Assembly (NCBI RefSeq): GCF_002917105.1
Contig: NZ_PQFZ01000001.1
Span: 496,001 to 560,000, forward strand
Source of the DNA: Allobosea psychrotolerans
Lineage (GTDB): Bacteria > Pseudomonadota > Alphaproteobacteria > Rhizobiales > Beijerinckiaceae
Reading direction: 5' to 3'
Length of the DNA: 64,000 nucleotides
Position numbers and translations under genes: made by a program. Positions 9,272 to 19,625 of the stretch are shown here, in pieces. Under the pieces are notes generated by a model, which saw only the letters and a list, made by a program, of their open reading frames with translations, was not told where the DNA came from and made no database searches. How positions within the stretch are numbered: position 1 is the first letter of the stretch; each line of letters begins with the position of its first letter.

Positions 9272-9326
9272 AGGGGCCTCCCTCGTGGTTCCTGTGAGCG
9301 TCGGCACTGCCCTCGGAATCAAACGC

Positions 9327-9342
9327 TTAACCATTCATTGAC
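9327..9342. promoter_or_regulatory. CtrA-like site upstream of ftsW
   Basis: TTAACCATTCATTGAC: a TTAAC half-site, exact 7-nt spacing between TTAA and TTGA, then a second half with one mismatch. The CtrA consensus is TTAA-N7-TTAA(C). It lies 57 bp upstream of the ftsW ATG and 55 bp from the GNAT start, so it could act on either gene. Confidence 0.5.
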
Positions 9343-9398
9343 AGAGTGATTCGGAAACGAGGCGCATTTCTGCGCCGTGCTCGATCTTGGAGCCAAGC

Positions 9399-13206: not shown

Positions 13207-13628
13207 GTGCTGGAGCGAAAGAACTCGCCCGAAACGCTCGACTTCGCCCGCCGGCAGCGCGGGCAGCCGATCCGGGCGGAAACGGCGTCTTGGCAAGCAG
13301 TCCGAAGCCGTCGATTCCACGGCCTCAAATTCAAGCGACAAGCAGCGATCTGGCCGTCATAGCGGATTTCTGCTGCTTCGAGCACAGGCTCGTGGTCGAA
13401 CTGGACGGCGAACCCCACCTGACGGACGAGGCGAGACTCAGAGTCGCTTCTCGCGACGCCTGGCTCAAGCGCGAAGGCTATAAGGTCTTGCGCTTTCCGA
13501 ATGAGCGCGTGCTAGGAAACCTCGAATTCGTTTTGCGCGAGATCGCCGCCAGGACCGGTCTCGCCGGACTTCCCTCATCCGACCCGGCTTCGCCGGGCCA
13601 CCTTCTCCCCCGAGGGGAGAAGGGTTAG
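13207..13628 (+). pseudogene. Frameshifted DUF559 (Vsr-like endonuclease-fold) gene
   Basis: The family N-terminus reads from a GTG at 13207 in one frame (ERKNSPETLDFARR, then RRFHGLKFKRQ) and stops at 13360. The family C-terminus continues in the next frame as VIADFCCFEHRLVVELDGE, then [19 protein letters not shown]. Joining the frames near 13354 restores a normal ~120-residue DUF559 protein, so one base has been lost there (or misread). DUF559 proteins have an endonuclease-like fold related to Vsr, but their role is not established. The last ~15 codons run into the right-hand inverted repeat. It sits between murC and murB, where most relatives have no gene. Confidence 0.8.
13567..13609. repeat. 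Right arm of inverted repeat flanking the DUF559 relic
   Basis: Block beginning GACTTCCCTCATCC and ending CCACCTTCTCCC; near-perfect reverse complement of 13164-13204. It overlaps the 3' end of the DUF559 frame and carries its own internal hairpin, CCCGGC / GCCGGG. A short CTCCCC-CGAGGGGAG hairpin follows at about 13605-13619. Confidence 0.8.
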
Positions 13629-13641
13629 CGCGGCGCTTCCC

Positions 13642-14574
13642 ATGACCTTCCCCGACATCACCTCCGCCATCCGTGCCTCGGCTCCCGATCTGCGCGGCCG
13701 GCTCCTGCCCAATCACGACATGTCCGGCCTGACCTGGTTCCGCGTCGGCGGGCCGGCGCAGGCGCTGTTCACGCCGGCGGATGAGGAGGATCTGGCTCAG
13801 CTGCTGGCGCACTTGCCGGCCGAGATCCCCGTCACGGTGGTCGGGCTCGGGTCGAACCTGATCGTGCGCGATGGCGGTATTCCCGGCGTCGTGATCCGGC
13901 TCGGGGGCAAGGCCTTCGGCGAGATTTCGTTGGAGGCGGGCGACCGCCTGCGGGCCGGTACCGCCGTGCCCGACGTCAAGGTCGCGCGCGCGGCGGCCGA
14001 CGCCTCGCTCGACGGGCTTGCCTTCTATCGCGGCATTCCCGGCTGCATCGGCGGGGCGCTGCGCATGAATGCCGGCGCCCATGGCGGCGAGACGACCGAT
14101 GTGCTGGTCGAGGCGCGCGGCGTCACCCGCAAGGGCGAGATCGTCACGCTGAGCCATGCCGATATGGGCTTCACCTACCGCAACAGCGCGGCCGAGACCC
14201 ATGAGATCATCTTCACTTCGGCGCTGTTTCAGGGCCGGCCGGGCGATCAGGCGGCGATCTTCGCCGAGATGGACCGGGTCACGGCAGCGCGCGAGGCAGC
14301 CCAGCCGATCAAGGAACGCACCGGCGGCTCGACCTTCAAGAACCCGCAAGGCGGCAAGGCCTGGCAATTGATCGATGCGGCCGGCTGCCGCGGCCTGCGC
14401 ATCGGCGGGGCGCAGGTCTCGGAGATGCACTGCAACTTCCTGATCAACACCGGCGGCGCGACAGCGGCCGATATCGAGGGCCTCGGCGAAGAGGTGCGGC
14501 GCCGGGTGAAGCAGAACTCCGGCTTCGAACTGCAATGGGAGATCAAGCGGCTCGGCGTGGCGAGCCAGCATTAG
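13642..14574 (+). CDS. murB: UDP-N-acetylenolpyruvoylglucosamine reductase MurB
   Basis: FAD-dependent enzyme of 310 residues that makes UDP-MurNAc from the enolpyruvyl product of MurA. FAD-domain signatures are [12 protein letters not shown] (about residues 70-81) and [29 protein letters not shown] near residue 230 holds the catalytic serine of the family. The C-terminal domain ends with [14 protein letters not shown], typical of the alphaproteobacterial type. It follows the repeat-rich DUF559 interval. Confidence 0.96.
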
Positions 14575-14598
14575 CTCCTGCCGCCGGCCCCCTATCTC

Positions 14599-14614
14599 TT
14601 AACGCCGCATTAAC
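14599..14614. promoter_or_regulatory. CtrA box upstream of ddl-ftsQAZ
   Basis: TTAACGCCGCATTAAC is an exact TTAA-N7-TTAAC, the full consensus for the cell-cycle regulator CtrA. It lies in the 74-bp murB-ddl gap, 35 bp before the ddl ATG, where it could overlap a promoter. CtrA is known to control ftsQA and ftsZ in Caulobacter; the link here is inferred from the motif and its place. Confidence 0.7.
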
Positions 14615-14648
14615 CATGATGGGTCGAGGTTCGCCGTAACAGGGAGCC

Positions 14649-15572
14649 ATGACCGCGATGACCAGACACGTCGCAGTGCTGATGGGCGGATGGTCCGTCG
14701 AGCGGGAGGTCAGCCTCAGCAGCGGCACGGCCTGCGCCAAGGCGCTGGAGAGCGTCGGCTTCCGCGTCACGCGCATCGATGTGCAGCGCGACATCGCCCA
14801 GGTGCTCGCCGATCTGCGCCCCGATGTCGCCTTCAACGCGCTGCATGGCCGCTTCGGCGAAGATGGCCTGATTCAAGGCGTGCTCGAGATTCTGCGTATC
14901 CCCTACACACATTCGGGCGTGCTCGCCTCGGCGCTTGCGATTCGCAAGGACAAGGCGAAGCTCGTTGCTGCGGCGGCCGGCGTGCCGGTGGCGCATGGAA
15001 TCGTGGTTTCGCGCTTCGAGGCGGCGAAAGAACACGTTCTGCAGCCGCCTTACGTGCTCAAGCCGATCAATGAAGGCTCGTCCGTCGGCGTCGTGATCGT
15101 CAAGCAGGGCCGCGAGCACCCCCCGCAAGAAATCGCCCGCGAGGACTGGCCCTGCGGCGATACGCTGTTGGCTGAAAGCTTCATCAGGGGGCGCGAGCTG
15201 ACCTGCGCCGTCATGGGAGGCAAGTCGCTGGGCGTGACCGAGATCCGGGCCTCGACCGGGGAGTTCTACGACTACGATGCGAAATACACGAAAGGTGGTT
15301 CGATCCACATCTGCCCGGCTCAAATTTTACCAAAAATTTACCAGCAGATCGAAGAGTGTGCGTTAACGGCGCATCAAGCAATCGGGTGCCGGGGCGTTAG
15401 CAGGTCTGACTTCCGCTATGACGACGAGACCGACACTCTCGTCTGGCTGGAAGTCAACACGCAGCCCGGCATGACCGAAACGAGCTTGGTGCCCGAATTG
15501 GCCGCCCATGCGGGCATGAACTTCGGTGAACTCGTCAAATGGATGGTGGAGGACGCCTCCCTCGATCGGTGA
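14649..15572 (+). CDS. ddl: D-alanine:D-alanine ligase
   Basis: ATP-grasp ligase of 307 residues supplying D-Ala-D-Ala to MurF. N-terminal [19 protein letters not shown] is the family signature, then [24 protein letters not shown] and the C-terminal metal-binding [19 protein letters not shown] lies just before the ATG. Near codon 225 there is an AT-rich patch (about 15318-15350) with rare codons such as TTA, odd in this GC-rich gene. The stop overlaps the likely ftsQ start. Confidence 0.96.
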
Positions 15573-16504
15573 ATGCGGTGATGGCGTCAGCCACCTCCCG
15601 CTTGCCGGTCCCTGCCGCCGGGCCGCAACTCCTCGTCGGGGAACGGTCTGGGCGCTGGCTGCGCCGCTCGCGGCGCAGTGCGGTCGCGGTGCCTCTGGCG
15701 CAGCGCCTGCCGCGCCGCATCGGCACCTGGCTTGCACTCGGTTTCCTGAGCCTGAGCATCGGCGCGGGCAGCGTGCTGGGCGGCCATGTCGAAGCCTTGC
15801 GCCAGGCCTATGGCGAGCCGCACCACATGCTGGCCCGGCTGGTCGGGCTCGGCATCGACCGCGTCACGATCTCGGGCCTCACGGAGTTGTCCGAGGCCGA
15901 GGTCCTGGTCGCGGCAGGAATCGATCCGAAGATCTCGCTCGCCTTCTTCGATGCCGACCAGGCCCGCAAGCTCCTGGAGGCGACGCCGCTGATTCGCGAG
16001 GCGACGGTCCGCAAGCTCTATCCGGGCGAGATCTTGATCACGCTGGTCGAGCGCGAGCCTTACGCGCTCTGGCAAGTCAAAGGCGACCTGTTCGTGATCG
16101 CTGCCGACGGCACGGTGATCGACAAGATGGATGACGGACGCTTCGCGCATCTGCCGCTCGTCGTTGGGCCCGGCGCCAATCTGCGCGCGGCCGAGTATAT
16201 CGCGCTGCGCGGCGAGGCCGGGCCGCTGGCGCCGCATATCCGGGCTGCGACGCTCGTCTCCGGGCGCCGCTGGACACTCAAGCTCGACAACGGAATGGAT
16301 GTGCGCCTGCCCGAGATTCAGCCCGGTGTCGCGGTGAAGCGGCTCGCCGGGCTCGAAAGCGATTTCCGCGTGCTCGACAAGGATCTGCTCGCGATCGACC
16401 TGCGCCAGCCCGACCGGGTGGTGATGCGATTGTCGGAAGAGGCGGCCAGCGCCCGCGCAGAACAGCTCAAGAGCAAGACCAAGAAGAAGGGAGGCGAAGC
16501 ATGA
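15569..16504 (+). CDS. ftsQ: Cell division protein FtsQ
   Basis: Bitopic division protein: a basic N-terminal tail, one membrane helix ([19 protein letters not shown]), then a POTRA domain ([23 protein letters not shown]) and the FtsQ beta domain with [11 protein letters not shown]. It bridges FtsL/FtsB to early divisome proteins. The start is uncertain: GTG 15569 overlaps the ddl stop (GTGA) and is preferred; ATG 15539 and ATG 15581 are in the same frame. The end overlaps the ftsA start by 4 bp, and the C-terminus is Lys-rich. Confidence 0.9.
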
Positions 16505-17826
16505 ATCTGACCTCCCAGGGCCTGACGCCGCGGATGCGGCCCTTGTCGTCGCGCAAGAGCGCGACCTTGTCGATTCTGGACATCGGCACCAGCAAGGTCG
16601 TTTGCCTGATCGCCGAACTGAACCCGGCTGAGGCCAATGAACGGCTGCGCGGTCGCACCCATGTCGCGCGCATCATCGGCATCGGCCATCAGCGTTCGCT
16701 CGGCCTCAAGGGCGGGGCGATCATCGATCTCGAAAGCGCCGAGCGGGCGATTCGCGCGGCCGTCGACGCGGCAGAGCGCATGGCCAAGGTCGAGGTCCAA
16801 TCGGTCATCGTCAACCTGACCGGCGGCCGGCTCGGCTCCCAGCATTACGCGGCGGGCGTCGATCTGCGCGCCGGCGCGGTCGGCGACAGCGACGTCAAGC
16901 GCGTGCTGGCAGCGGCGGCGATGCATGCGCTCAAGCCCGGCAAGGCCGTCCTCCACGCCCTTCCCACCGGTTATGCGCTCGACGGTTCCCCCGGCGTGCT
17001 CGATCCGCGCGGCCTGATCGGCGGCAAGCTCTCGGTCGACATGCATGTCGTCGCCAGCGAAGCCTCGGCTGCGCGCAATGTCATGCTCGCAGTCGAGCGT
17101 TGCCATCTTGAGGTCGAGGCGGTCGTCGCGACGCCTTACGCGTCCGGCCTTTCCGTGCTGGTCGATGACGAGGCCGAGATGGGCGTCGTCGTGGTCGATA
17201 TGGGCGGCGGCACGACGAGCCTCGGCGTCTTCTCCGGCGGCCATCTGATGCATGCCGATGCGATCGCTGTCGGCGGCAACCACATCACCATGGACGTGGC
17301 GCGCGGGCTCTCCACCCGTGTCTCGGCGGCCGAGCGGCTGAAGACGCTACACGGCTCGGCGATCTCCAGCGCCTCGGACGAGCGCGACATGATTTCGGTG
17401 CCGCAGGTCGATGACGACGAGCGCGACATGCCCAACCACCTCGCCAAGTCGCATCTGGTGCGGATCATCAAGCCGCGCGTCGAGGAGATCCTCGAGCTGG
17501 TACGTGACAGGCTCAGCAATGCCGGCTTCTCCGCCCAGGCGGGACGCCGCGTCGTGCTGACCGGCGGCGCCTGCCAGCTCACCGGCCTGCCGGAGGCGGC
17601 GCGCCGCATCCTCGGCGGTCAGGTCCGCACCGGCCGGCCGCTCGGCATCAAGGGCTTGCCGGAAGCGGGCAAGGGACCGGCCTTCGCGGCGGCTGTCGGG
17701 CTCTTGGTCTATCCGCAGGTGGCGCATGTCGAGCATTTCGAGCCGCGCGCCAGCTCGGCTTATTTCGCCACGGGAACGGACGGGTATTTCTCCCGCGTCG
17801 GCCGGTGGCTGAAGGAAAGTTTCTAA
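16501..17826 (+). CDS. ftsA: Cell division protein FtsA (actin-like)
   Basis: Actin-like ATPase of 441 residues that tethers FtsZ filaments to the membrane. ATPase motifs are LDIGTSKVVCLIAEL (phosphate 1), VVVDMGGGTTSLGVF (phosphate 2) and VVLTGGACQLTGL (adenosine). The last residues, GYFSRVGRWLKESF, form the amphipathic membrane-targeting helix expected of FtsA. It overlaps ftsQ by 4 bp and lies 104 bp before ftsZ. Confidence 0.97.
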   Translation: MNLTSQGLTPRMRPLSSRKSATLSILDIGTSKVVCLIAELNPAEANERLRGRTHVARIIGIGHQRSLGLKGGAIIDLESAERAIRAAVDAAERMAKVEVQSVIVNLTGGRLGSQHYAAGVDLRAGAVGDSDVKRVLAAAAMHALKPGKAVLHALPTGYALDGSPGVLDPRGLIGGKLSVDMHVVASEASAARNVMLAVERCHLEVEAVVATPYASGLSVLVDDEAEMGVVVVDMGGGTTSLGVFSGGHLMHADAIAVGGNHITMDVARGLSTRVSAAERLKTLHGSAISSASDERDMISVPQVDDDERDMPNHLAKSHLVRIIKPRVEEILELVRDRLSNAGFSAQAGRRVVLTGGACQLTGLPEAARRILGGQVRTGRPLGIKGLPEAGKGPAFAAAVGLLVYPQVAHVEHFEPRASSAYFATGTDGYFSRVGRWLKESF

Positions 17827-17834
17827 GGGGTAAC

Positions 17835-17864
17835 GGCGCGCCGGGGCGTTTTTCCGGCGGCGCC
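17835..17864 (+). promoter_or_regulatory. GC-rich hairpin in the ftsA-ftsZ leader
   Basis: GGCGCGCCGG (17835-17844) can pair with CCGGCGGCGCC (17854-17864) with one bulged base; the loop holds five T residues. It lies directly after the ftsA stop, 67 bp before ftsZ. It may attenuate read-through or protect a processed ftsZ transcript; no function can be read from sequence alone. Confidence 0.35.
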
Positions 17865-17930
17865 AAGTGTCAATCGTAGCAATCGGGACGGCTCCCGCCA
17901 GGCGCCGGACAAGGATCAAAAGAGGCAACC

Positions 17931-19625
17931 ATGGCGATGAATCTGCAAGCCCCGGACATCCGGGAACTCAAGCCCCGGATCACGGTGTTCGGTGTTGGTG
18001 GAGCCGGCGGCAACGCCGTGAACAACATGATCGAGGCCGGTCTCGACGGCGTCGATTTCGTGGTCGCCAACACGGACGCCCAGGCGCTGGCGCTCAGCCG
18101 CGCCTCGCGCATCATCCAGATGGGCCTGCAGGTCACCGAAGGTCTCGGCGCCGGCTCGCAGCCTGAGGTCGGGCGCGCGGCGGCCGAAGAGGTCATCGAC
18201 GAGATCCGCGACCACCTGGCGGGCGCGCATATGGTCTTCATCACCGCCGGCATGGGCGGCGGCACCGGCACGGGCGCGGCTCCCGCGATCGCCCGCGTCG
18301 CCCGCGACATGGGCATCCTCACCGTTGGCGTCGTCACCAAGCCGTTCCAGTTCGAGGGCCACCGCCGCATGCGCATGGCGGAAGCCGGCATCGGCGAGCT
18401 GAACGAGGCGGTCGACACGCTGATCGTGATCCCGAATCAGAACCTGTTCCGTGTCGCCAACGAGACCACCGGCTTCGCCGACGCCTTCGGCATGGCCGAC
18501 CAGGTGCTCTATTCCGGCGTCGCCTGCATCACCGACCTGATGGTGCGTCCGGGCCTGATCAACCTCGACTTCGCAGACGTGCGCGCCGTGATGCGCGGCA
18601 TGGGCAAGGCGATGATGGGCACCGGCGAGGCGCAGGGCGAGAAGCGCGCTCTGTCGGCCGCTCAGGCTGCGATCAACAACCCGCTGCTCGACGATGTCTC
18701 GATGAAGGGCGCGCGCGGTCTGCTGATCTCGATCACCGGCGGGCGCGACATGAAGCTCTATGAGGTCGACGAAGCCGCTACCCGTATCCGTGAGGAGGTC
18801 GATTCCGAGGCCAACATCATCGTCGGCGCGACCTTCGACGAATCACTTGAAGGCATCGTGCGGGTCTCGGTCGTGGCGACCGGCATCGACAAGCCGGTCA
18901 CCACCCAGGCCGAGATGGACGAGACTGAGGCCCGCATCGCCCAGGTCGCCGAGCGTCTGAAGGCGGAAGCCCGCCTGCGCAGCACCAGCGCCCCGGTGCG
19001 CGGCTTCACGCCGCCGCCGGCGCCCGAGCCTGTCATGGATCTGCGCATGCCGCAGCAGGCCGAGCCGCTGCGCGCCCCGGCGCCCGCGCCGATCAACGAG
19101 GACATCCATATCGAGCCGGTCCAGCCGCGCGCGATGATGCCGGCGGCCCCGGCTCCCGAGCCGATGTTGTCGGTCCCGCAACAGGCCATGCCGGAGAGCA
19201 GCTTCATTCCGCCGTCCCCGGAGCGCGCCGTGATCCGCCCGACGCGGATGCCCCGCATCGAGGATCTGCCGGTGCCGGCGCAGAACCAGATCGCGGCCCA
19301 GCGTGGCGCGCAGTCGGCTCCCCCGCCGCCGAACTCCGCCGACCAGAAGCGGATGTCGCTGATGCAGCGCCTGGCCTCGGTCGGCTTCGGCCGCAAGGAG
19401 GATGAGGCTCAGGAGCCGCAGGCTCCGCTGCGCCAGGCTCCGCAGCCCCCCGCTGCGGCGCCCGCGCCGAGCGCGGCCCATGCCGAGTATATGCGCCGTC
19501 CGCCGCAGCCGGCCGCGCGCCCGGCGCAGGGTCAGCTCGACCAGATGGGTCGCGCCGCCCCGAATCGCAGCAGCGAGGAAGACCAGCTGGAAATCCCCGC
19601 ATTCCTGCGCCGCCAGGCGAATTGA
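17931..19625 (+). CDS. ftsZ: Cell division protein FtsZ (tubulin-like GTPase)
   Basis: 564 residues, long for FtsZ (E. coli 383). GTPase core: [16 protein letters not shown] at about residue 20, the tubulin signature [10 protein letters not shown] at about 107, and the synergy-loop stretch [11 protein letters not shown] at about 206. After residue ~320 comes a ~220-residue Pro/Ala/Gln-rich disordered linker, then a conserved terminal peptide ([12 protein letters not shown]) that binds FtsA and other partners. Long linkers are usual in Hyphomicrobiales. AAAAGAGGC precedes the ATG at a normal distance. Confidence 0.98.

Follow-up and report, generated by a model that had tools for sequence, protein, structure and literature searches.

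The DNA in and around ddl, the D-alanine--D-alanine ligase gene of the dcw cluster, appears to carry two separate elements in Allobosea psychrotolerans: a CtrA box in front of the gene, which would govern ddl, and an older control element within its coding sequence, which would serve ftsQAZ. We give this reading, as judged from sequence, a probability of roughly two in three. CtrA bound at 14599-14614 would govern transcription of ddl, probably by activating it, its site overlapping the -35 region of a promoter with a start shortly upstream of the gene; the box would persist only as long as ddl does, and would be characteristic mainly of the genus Bosea. The ftsQAZ genes would have a control element of their own at 15326-15393, inside ddl, that is older than the box and outlives ddl. 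CtrA most likely reads this block too, by way of lower-affinity TTTACC half-sites, and ddl and ftsQAZ would thereby be timed separately. The presence and conservation of the two elements, the loss of the box together with ddl and the retention of the block were computed, and from these we infer promoter activity, the direction of regulation, the binder and the cell-cycle timing. Below, 'the window' is the whole stretch of 64,000 nucleotides that was analysed; its features are collected in Table 1.

Table 1. Features of the window, and the genomes in which the cluster ddl has decayed
Feature	Position or genomes	Strand	Basis
One-mismatch box TTAACCATTCATTGAC before ftsW, with GANTC on both sides	9327..9342	+	box in 12/12 relatives
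murB	13642..14574	+	ORF, Pfam
Predicted CtrA box TTAAC-N6-TTAAC (full TTAA-N7-TTAAC) before ddl, TTAACGCCGCATTAAC	14599..14614	+	exact match; 10/10 box columns invariant in 50/50 core Bosea
GAGGTTCG, partly conserved, 27-34 bases past box start; candidate -10 if start is at about 14638	14626..14633	+	column 29 G 46/50, column 31 T 42/50
GGGAG, likely ddl ribosome-binding site	14642..14646	+	sequence; inference
ddl (D-alanine--D-alanine ligase); start may be 14658	14649..15572	+	Pfam PF07478/PF01820; NCBIfam NF002378, 401.9 bits
Conserved block embedded in ddl, candidate ftsQAZ control element/promoter	15326..15393	+	kept in ddl-dead genomes; synonymous conservation; GC3 trough
TTTACC-N5-TTTACC, 11-bp direct repeat (OmpR/CtrA-type geometry) in block	15326..15342	+	single exact copy in genome
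TTGATGCGCCGTTAAC, one-mismatch CtrA box in block	15362..15377	-	pattern scan
ftsQ, overlapping ddl end; start per ORF finder	15539..16504	+	ORF, Pfam
ftsA	16501..17826	+	ORF, Pfam
ftsZ	17931..19625	+	ORF, Pfam
ddl-dead genomes (L126-L133)	G008, G014, G018, G020, G037, G047, G049, G064		each with distant second Ddl

The preliminary description of this DNA had reported an exact TTAA-N7-TTAAC shortly before ddl, and a pattern scan of the 64-kb window confirms it: the box lies between murB and ddl, with 34 bases between its end and the first in-frame ATG of ddl (14649). A second ATG, nine bases further on at 14658, is the start used in many relatives. Exact TTAA-N7-TTAA occurs once in the window, against 0.02 occurrences expected from shuffled sequence. 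When one mismatch to TTAA-N7-TTAAC is allowed there are three places (four rows of the scan, the ddl box scoring on both strands) against 0.20 expected, and all three are inside the dcw cluster, namely before ftsW, before ddl and within ddl. Pfam confirms the identity of the cluster genes ftsW, murG, murC, murB, ddl, ftsQ, ftsA and ftsZ; the closest named match of the ddl gene is that of Bosea sp. OK403 (98% identical).

Conservation in relatives had been proposed as one check on the site, and here the box holds up well, its half-sites and spacing being kept where the flanks have diverged. The cluster was compared in 67 genomes of the genus Bosea, the window's own included; 50 of these have an intact cluster ddl and are called the core, and core counts again include the window's own genome. 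Every core genome has exactly one TTAA-N7-TTAA in the compared stretch, always in the form TTAAC-N6-TTAAC and always starting 47-54 bp before the position aligned with 14649 of the window. The ten half-site columns are invariant in 50/50 genomes, and they are followed by C and then A in 49/50 each; the consensus among relatives reads TTAAC-N5-R-TTAACCA. Pairwise identity is 33% in the upstream flank and 53% in the interior of the box, as against 100% in the ten box columns. Where the comparison is limited to 25 genomes with flank identity below 50%, all 10 box columns are invariant and none of 68 flank columns is. The gap between murB and ddl is 1.6-2.3 kb in 15 of the 37 core genomes with murB in the compared stretch, and the box remains beside ddl. 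An outer clade of eight genomes, whose ddl is 73-78% identical, has a one-mismatch box in all seven members that can be assessed; in the eighth (G045) just 25 bp of sequence precede ddl.

According to excerpts of PMC4287350, the 5' base of a full CtrA box in Caulobacter is found close to the -35 region; for ctrA P2 it is at -39. By that rule, transcription of ddl would start near 14638, leaving a leader of about 11 bases that includes the GGGAG; such a start fits the range of 14620-14645 in which the first description had expected one. The same Caulobacter geometry (PMC4287350, in excerpt) is the ground for proposing GAGGTTCG as a putative -10 element. A search for sigma-70-like promoters around the box and the block (14400-15700) found none. 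Two other ways of reading the site were considered and dropped. CTATCT at 14592 might have been a -10 element repressed by CtrA; columns -7 to -2 are variable in relatives. The box might also have been an inverted repeat, GGTTAAC-N5-GTTAACC, as it appears in several relatives; the G before the first TTAAC is found in only 36/50 core genomes, whereas the TTAAC direct repeat is invariant.

The genome encodes CtrA itself: one protein scores 424.8 bits with NF045991 ('response regulator transcription factor CtrA'; cut-off 350), and its top match in the PDB is CtrA chain 4qpj. The ChpT and GcrA families are also matched. Genome-wide, TTAA-N7-TTAA is found at 27 places in 6.39 Mb. Pairs of TTAA at gaps of 2-20 bases occur at 100 places, and the same 27 have a gap of exactly seven (binomial P 1e-12 against an equal share of 1/19); a heuristic ORF call places 25 of the 27 between genes. 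Ten protein pieces from neighbours of these boxes were submitted to Pfam, most neighbours of the 27 boxes being outside that set: five scored above the cut-off, as a Fis-type HTH_8, a flagellar rod protein, FlgD, an FtsK membrane region and a response regulator, one had a TarH match below the cut-off and four had no match. It should be noted that some neighbours of the genome-wide boxes do not look like cell-cycle genes. Since the box is conserved in 50/50 core genomes, CtrA is encoded and other boxes stand at flagellar genes and ftsK, the sequence at 14599-14614 very probably serves ddl as a CtrA site.

Of the other one-mismatch places, that before ftsW could be compared in 12 relatives whose ftsW upstream region was available. 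In this region (9310-9370 of the window) GANTC precedes the box in 12/12 relatives and follows it in 11/12, and it seems likely from the sequence that ftsW receives input from CtrA plus CcrM/GcrA. No GANTC is present at 14572-14660 of the window. In the outer Bosea clade (L135-L141), GATTC stands 13-52 bp before the aligned ddl start, and it is also found shortly before ddl at several Rhizobium and Methylocystis loci; where GATTC precedes ddl, a CcrM-linked ddl promoter is possible.

The evidence on the relation between the box and ftsQAZ comes from genomes that have lost ddl. Nine Bosea genomes lack a full-length cluster ddl, their best match being a second, distant Ddl elsewhere that is 35-37% identical; a second, distant Ddl (38%) is also present in the window's genome, at G000:C3:173873-174649. 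In eight of the nine, a stretch of 303-996 bp between murB and an intact ftsQ contains a decayed ddl. The ninth, G046, was not judged, its contig ending within ftsQ. A nucleotide tree of FtsQ+FtsA places the eight at four points among the intact genomes (L130; L126/L127/L128/L131/L132; L129; L133), with local supports of 0.81-1.0 at the separating nodes, which implies at least four losses of ddl within Bosea if the gene was never regained. No box with up to one mismatch lies between murB and the block in any of the eight readable ddl-dead genomes; ftsQ and ftsA are intact in all of them, and ftsZ is present as far as the compared sequence reaches. The block has a different fate. All eight genomes match the window exactly in the runs 15326-15358, 15360-15381 and 15385-15393 of the block, which make up 64 of its 68 columns, and mean identity in 22-bp windows beside it falls to 0.75 and 0.61. 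The single base that separates the first run from the second is absent from five of the eight and differs in three. The minus-strand TTGATGCGCCGTTAAC is present in 8/8.

In intact genes, too, the block is unusual. It spans 68 bp, lies 146-213 bp before the called start of ftsQ (15539), and consists of TTTACC-N5-TTTACC followed 20 bases later by TTAAC. A DNA search finds the 85-bp stretch around it in 66 of the 67 Bosea genomes, the exception being G046. Each of the other genomes has one copy, and G025 has a second, partial one of 32 bp (G025:C23:543063-543094), 88% identical to part of the block. Of the 21 codons 225-245, 19 (all but 228 and 233, which vary) show 100% synonymous identity across the 50 core genomes; the 21 include two TTA leucine codons in a gene whose mean GC3 is 0.81, and several of them specify another amino acid in a minority of core genomes. 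Constraint on the DNA is thus independent of the Ddl protein, as seen both in the eight of eight ddl-dead remnants and in the computed synonymous recoding given below.

A wider comparison indicates that the block is not confined to Bosea. Of 80 named loci, 15 are core Bosea, 27 are other Hyphomicrobiales (assigned by title and rank, two being titled only Proteobacteria) and 21 are other Alphaproteobacteria, C. crescentus itself not being among these; the 17 outside the class were excluded from the comparison of GC3 and TTTACC. The gene-wide minimum of GC3 falls at the block in the core (0.23), in the outer clade (0.30) and in the 27 other Hyphomicrobiales (0.21), and no such minimum is seen there in the 21 other Alphaproteobacteria. 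At the aligned ddl codons, TTTACC is found in 27/27 named Hyphomicrobiales as against 0/21 other Alphaproteobacteria. A draw made evenly across the order provided 121 genomes under 52 family labels, 114 of them with ddl at E 1e-60; without the seven lacking ddl at that threshold and the window's own genome, 113 remain for counting. TTTACC occupies the aligned synonymous codons in 78 of these 113 ddl genes, against 10.1 expected when each gene is recoded by its own synonymous codon usage (400 runs, maximum 20), and is absent from the site in 35/113. The GC3 minimum of the draw is again at the block (0.31), the lowest window starting outside the region having 0.49. The looser repeat THHACC-N5-TTTACC is found in 50/50 core, 8/8 outer, 18/27 other named Hyphomicrobiales and 67/113 genomes of the draw.

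The exact CtrA box, by comparison, occurs within 250 bp upstream of ddl in 3/113 order members, two of the 113 having less than 250 bp of upstream sequence (210 and 117). At the loci L255, L266 and L274 the exact box TTAATGCAGCGTTAAC stands 90-94 bp before the aligned ddl start, possibly as an independent gain. By this distribution the box before ddl is largely a feature of Bosea, and the inner element, which would be older, belongs to the order Hyphomicrobiales.

Some lineages of the order have no ddl at E 1e-60. In G101 and G178, which are of one genus, TTTACC-N5-TTTACC and a following GTTAACG stand before ftsQ, and a weak remnant of ddl is detected in G178 only. Four of the lineages without ddl outside Bosea can be assessed, and three of them (G116/G153, G132 and G174) have no exact repeat before ftsQ. 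By eye, G116 and G153, also of one genus and with no ddl match, have GTAACC-N5-TTTAC[C/G], then 19 bases and GTTAAT, a Bosea-like layout; G132 and G174 have no such repeat before ftsQ. The sequence of G180 begins inside ftsA and is not assessable.

It is less clear what reads the block. Its plus-strand repeat departs from the canonical CtrA full box by two mismatches and TTGATGCGCCGTTAAC by one, while the repeat has the 6-bp half-sites at 11-bp spacing of an OmpR-family-type site. CtrA is the most likely binder, by analogy, since the repeat itself fails the CtrA consensus. The relaxed pattern TTHACC-N5-TTHACC occurs at 10 places in the genome, against three for a reversed control; these include the regions upstream of flgI and minC, both named by Pfam, and one before a gene that is FlgB-like by sequence (no Pfam match). 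A porin gene, which does not belong to division, also has TTTACC-N5-TTAACC, 283 bp upstream. Thirty minC loci were examined, out of 55 genomes with a match, and TTTAC[CG]-N5-TTAACC is present in 30/30 of them (26 TTTACC, four TTTACG), about 55 bp before the start. Excerpts of PMC4433202 state that CtrA represses minCD directly in S. meliloti. Given these minC boxes and minCD being a direct CtrA target there, either of TTTACC and TTAACC seems able to take the place of the other where CtrA is concerned, which favours CtrA as the reader of the block. Among the literature matches listed for TTTACC and CtrA (the best 20 of 1,336) there is only unrelated work. A second motif at minC, AAAATTTACCAAG, touches the start codon in 27/30 Bosea loci (L334-L363), with AAAATTAACCAAG in two loci and AAAATTCACCAAG in one; by eye, AAAATTTACCAAG resembles AAAATTTACCA of the ddl block.

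That the block is instead read by another regulator of the OmpR family, such as ChvI/BvrR or CenR, or by some other factor, is a real possibility, although not the one that we favour. Direct repeats about 10 bp apart are common sites of OmpR-family regulators (PMC9275681, in excerpt), and Trans_reg_C has 23 matches in the genome. Brucella BvrR ChIP-seq, in the part of PMC9491525 available, lists one site each at ftsQ and ftsA, and excerpts of PMC9275681 describe enrichment of R. sphaeroides CenR upstream of ddlA, ftsW and mraZ, at which its motif is missing and which the authors consider a possible artefact. Against this, the published motifs are absent from 15316-15400, whether as the CenR site TGA-N8-TGA, the Caulobacter ChvI site TTGC-N3-GCAA or TGTCA as one BvrR box (for ChvI and BvrR the scan covered these two forms alone), and TTTACC is paired with TTAACC before minC and flgI. 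Patterns for NtrX, DnaA and SciP gave no match in the block. That conservation of the block has a coding or RNA reason, be it the Ddl protein, translation pausing or a small RNA, and has nothing to do with ftsQ, we regard as improbable. The block does lie within a coding gene, and in intact genomes the amino acids encoded also hold part of it fixed; but it persists where ddl no longer codes, even with one position missing or changed, the constraint sits in synonymous positions, and a search of 13400-18000 against Rfam gave no match at E values up to 1.

The preliminary description had placed the timing of septum formation at the upstream box rather than inside ddl. A strong form of that view, in which CtrA acts on the entire ddl-ftsQAZ operon mainly through the box and timing owes nothing to any sequence inside ddl, would accord with the conservation of the box throughout the core and with the overlap of ddl and ftsQ, which makes cotranscription possible. 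It is nevertheless unlikely, because eight of eight readable ddl-dead genomes are without the box and have intact ftsQ and ftsA, because the exact box is rare in the order, and because a more constrained element lies inside ddl. CtrA control of ddl thus stands as very probable, and the timing of the septum through the box loses its support, since the conserved, ddl-independent element before ftsQ lies inside the gene: it is the inner element that is kept when ddl dies, and the box that is lost. Read-through from the box may still contribute to ftsQAZ transcription, given the overlap of ddl and ftsQ. As for the notion that the box is a chance occurrence or an AT-rich promoter feature and no CtrA site, the small number expected in the window, the invariance of its columns despite diverged flanks and the genome-wide enrichment of the seven-base gap leave it with very little to commend it.

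Our preferred reading, a CtrA box for ddl and an inner element for ftsQAZ, can be extended to the order, although this is more tentative and we would put it at slightly below even odds. Throughout the Hyphomicrobiales, ftsQAZ would be controlled by an element in synonymous positions of ddl, with selection protecting the element and not the enzyme; CtrA would read relaxed TTTACC half-sites that are shared with minC, setting ftsQAZ and minCD together, and Bosea would later have added the canonical box for ddl. If this is true, a dispensable ddl decays while the control block within it stays intact, and some lineages have the block alone before ftsQ. The Bosea remnants would be a clear example of a pseudogene in which the single well-preserved part is the likely control element of the neighbouring gene. 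The ddl-internal element is a precise target that can be tested across an order: synonymous changes can break it and leave the Ddl protein untouched, so that supply of the enzyme is separable from expression of the divisome. For the route by which CtrA acts on division outside Caulobacter, the literature offers more than one answer, excerpts pointing to minCD in Sinorhizobium (PMC4433202) and to ftsAKQZ in Hyphomonas (PMC7200025).

A prior description of the box or of the ddl-internal element is possible. In the open literature searched, as represented by excerpts of PMC9275681, PMC4433202, PMC2877005, PMC7200025, PMC3616915, PMC9491525, PMC9022086, PMC4287350, PMC10538546, PMC9731502 and PMC10659215, and with most subscription work outside that scope, there is no description of a CtrA box before ddl or of an order-wide element inside it.

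The known systems provide some context. As far as the excerpts go, the upstream box resembles the CtrA full boxes of Caulobacter (PMC4287350) and Hyphomonas (PMC7200025) in sequence, in spacing, in its intergenic place just before a gene and in the presence of CtrA. In those organisms CtrA acts on division genes, namely ftsQ, ftsK and mipZ in Caulobacter (PMC4287350) and ftsAKQZ in Hyphomonas (PMC7200025). The Bosea box differs in standing before ddl and in being mainly a genus-level trait, and its function is a prediction from sequence. The block may be compared with the Caulobacter ftsQ promoter. As there, control of ftsQ would be set apart from the earlier dcw genes, with a CtrA-type regulator likely; on the other hand there is no sign of a shared element, TTTACC being absent from the aligned ddl codons in all 21 of the other Alphaproteobacteria (again without C. 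crescentus). The Caulobacter promoter has a start site with a CtrA motif and CtrA enrichment, according to excerpts of PMC4287350. CenKR of R. sphaeroides offers another parallel, being enriched at the promoters of mraZ, ftsW and ddlA and using a direct-repeat site (PMC9275681, in excerpt), but its TGA-N8-TGA is absent from the Bosea block. A likeness to S. meliloti is seen at minCD (PMC4433202, in excerpt), where Bosea minC has the conserved TTTAC[CG]-N5-TTAACC. The S. meliloti paper, in the part cited, contrasts the minCD route with the ftsQA route of Caulobacter; Bosea appears to have CtrA-like sites at both.
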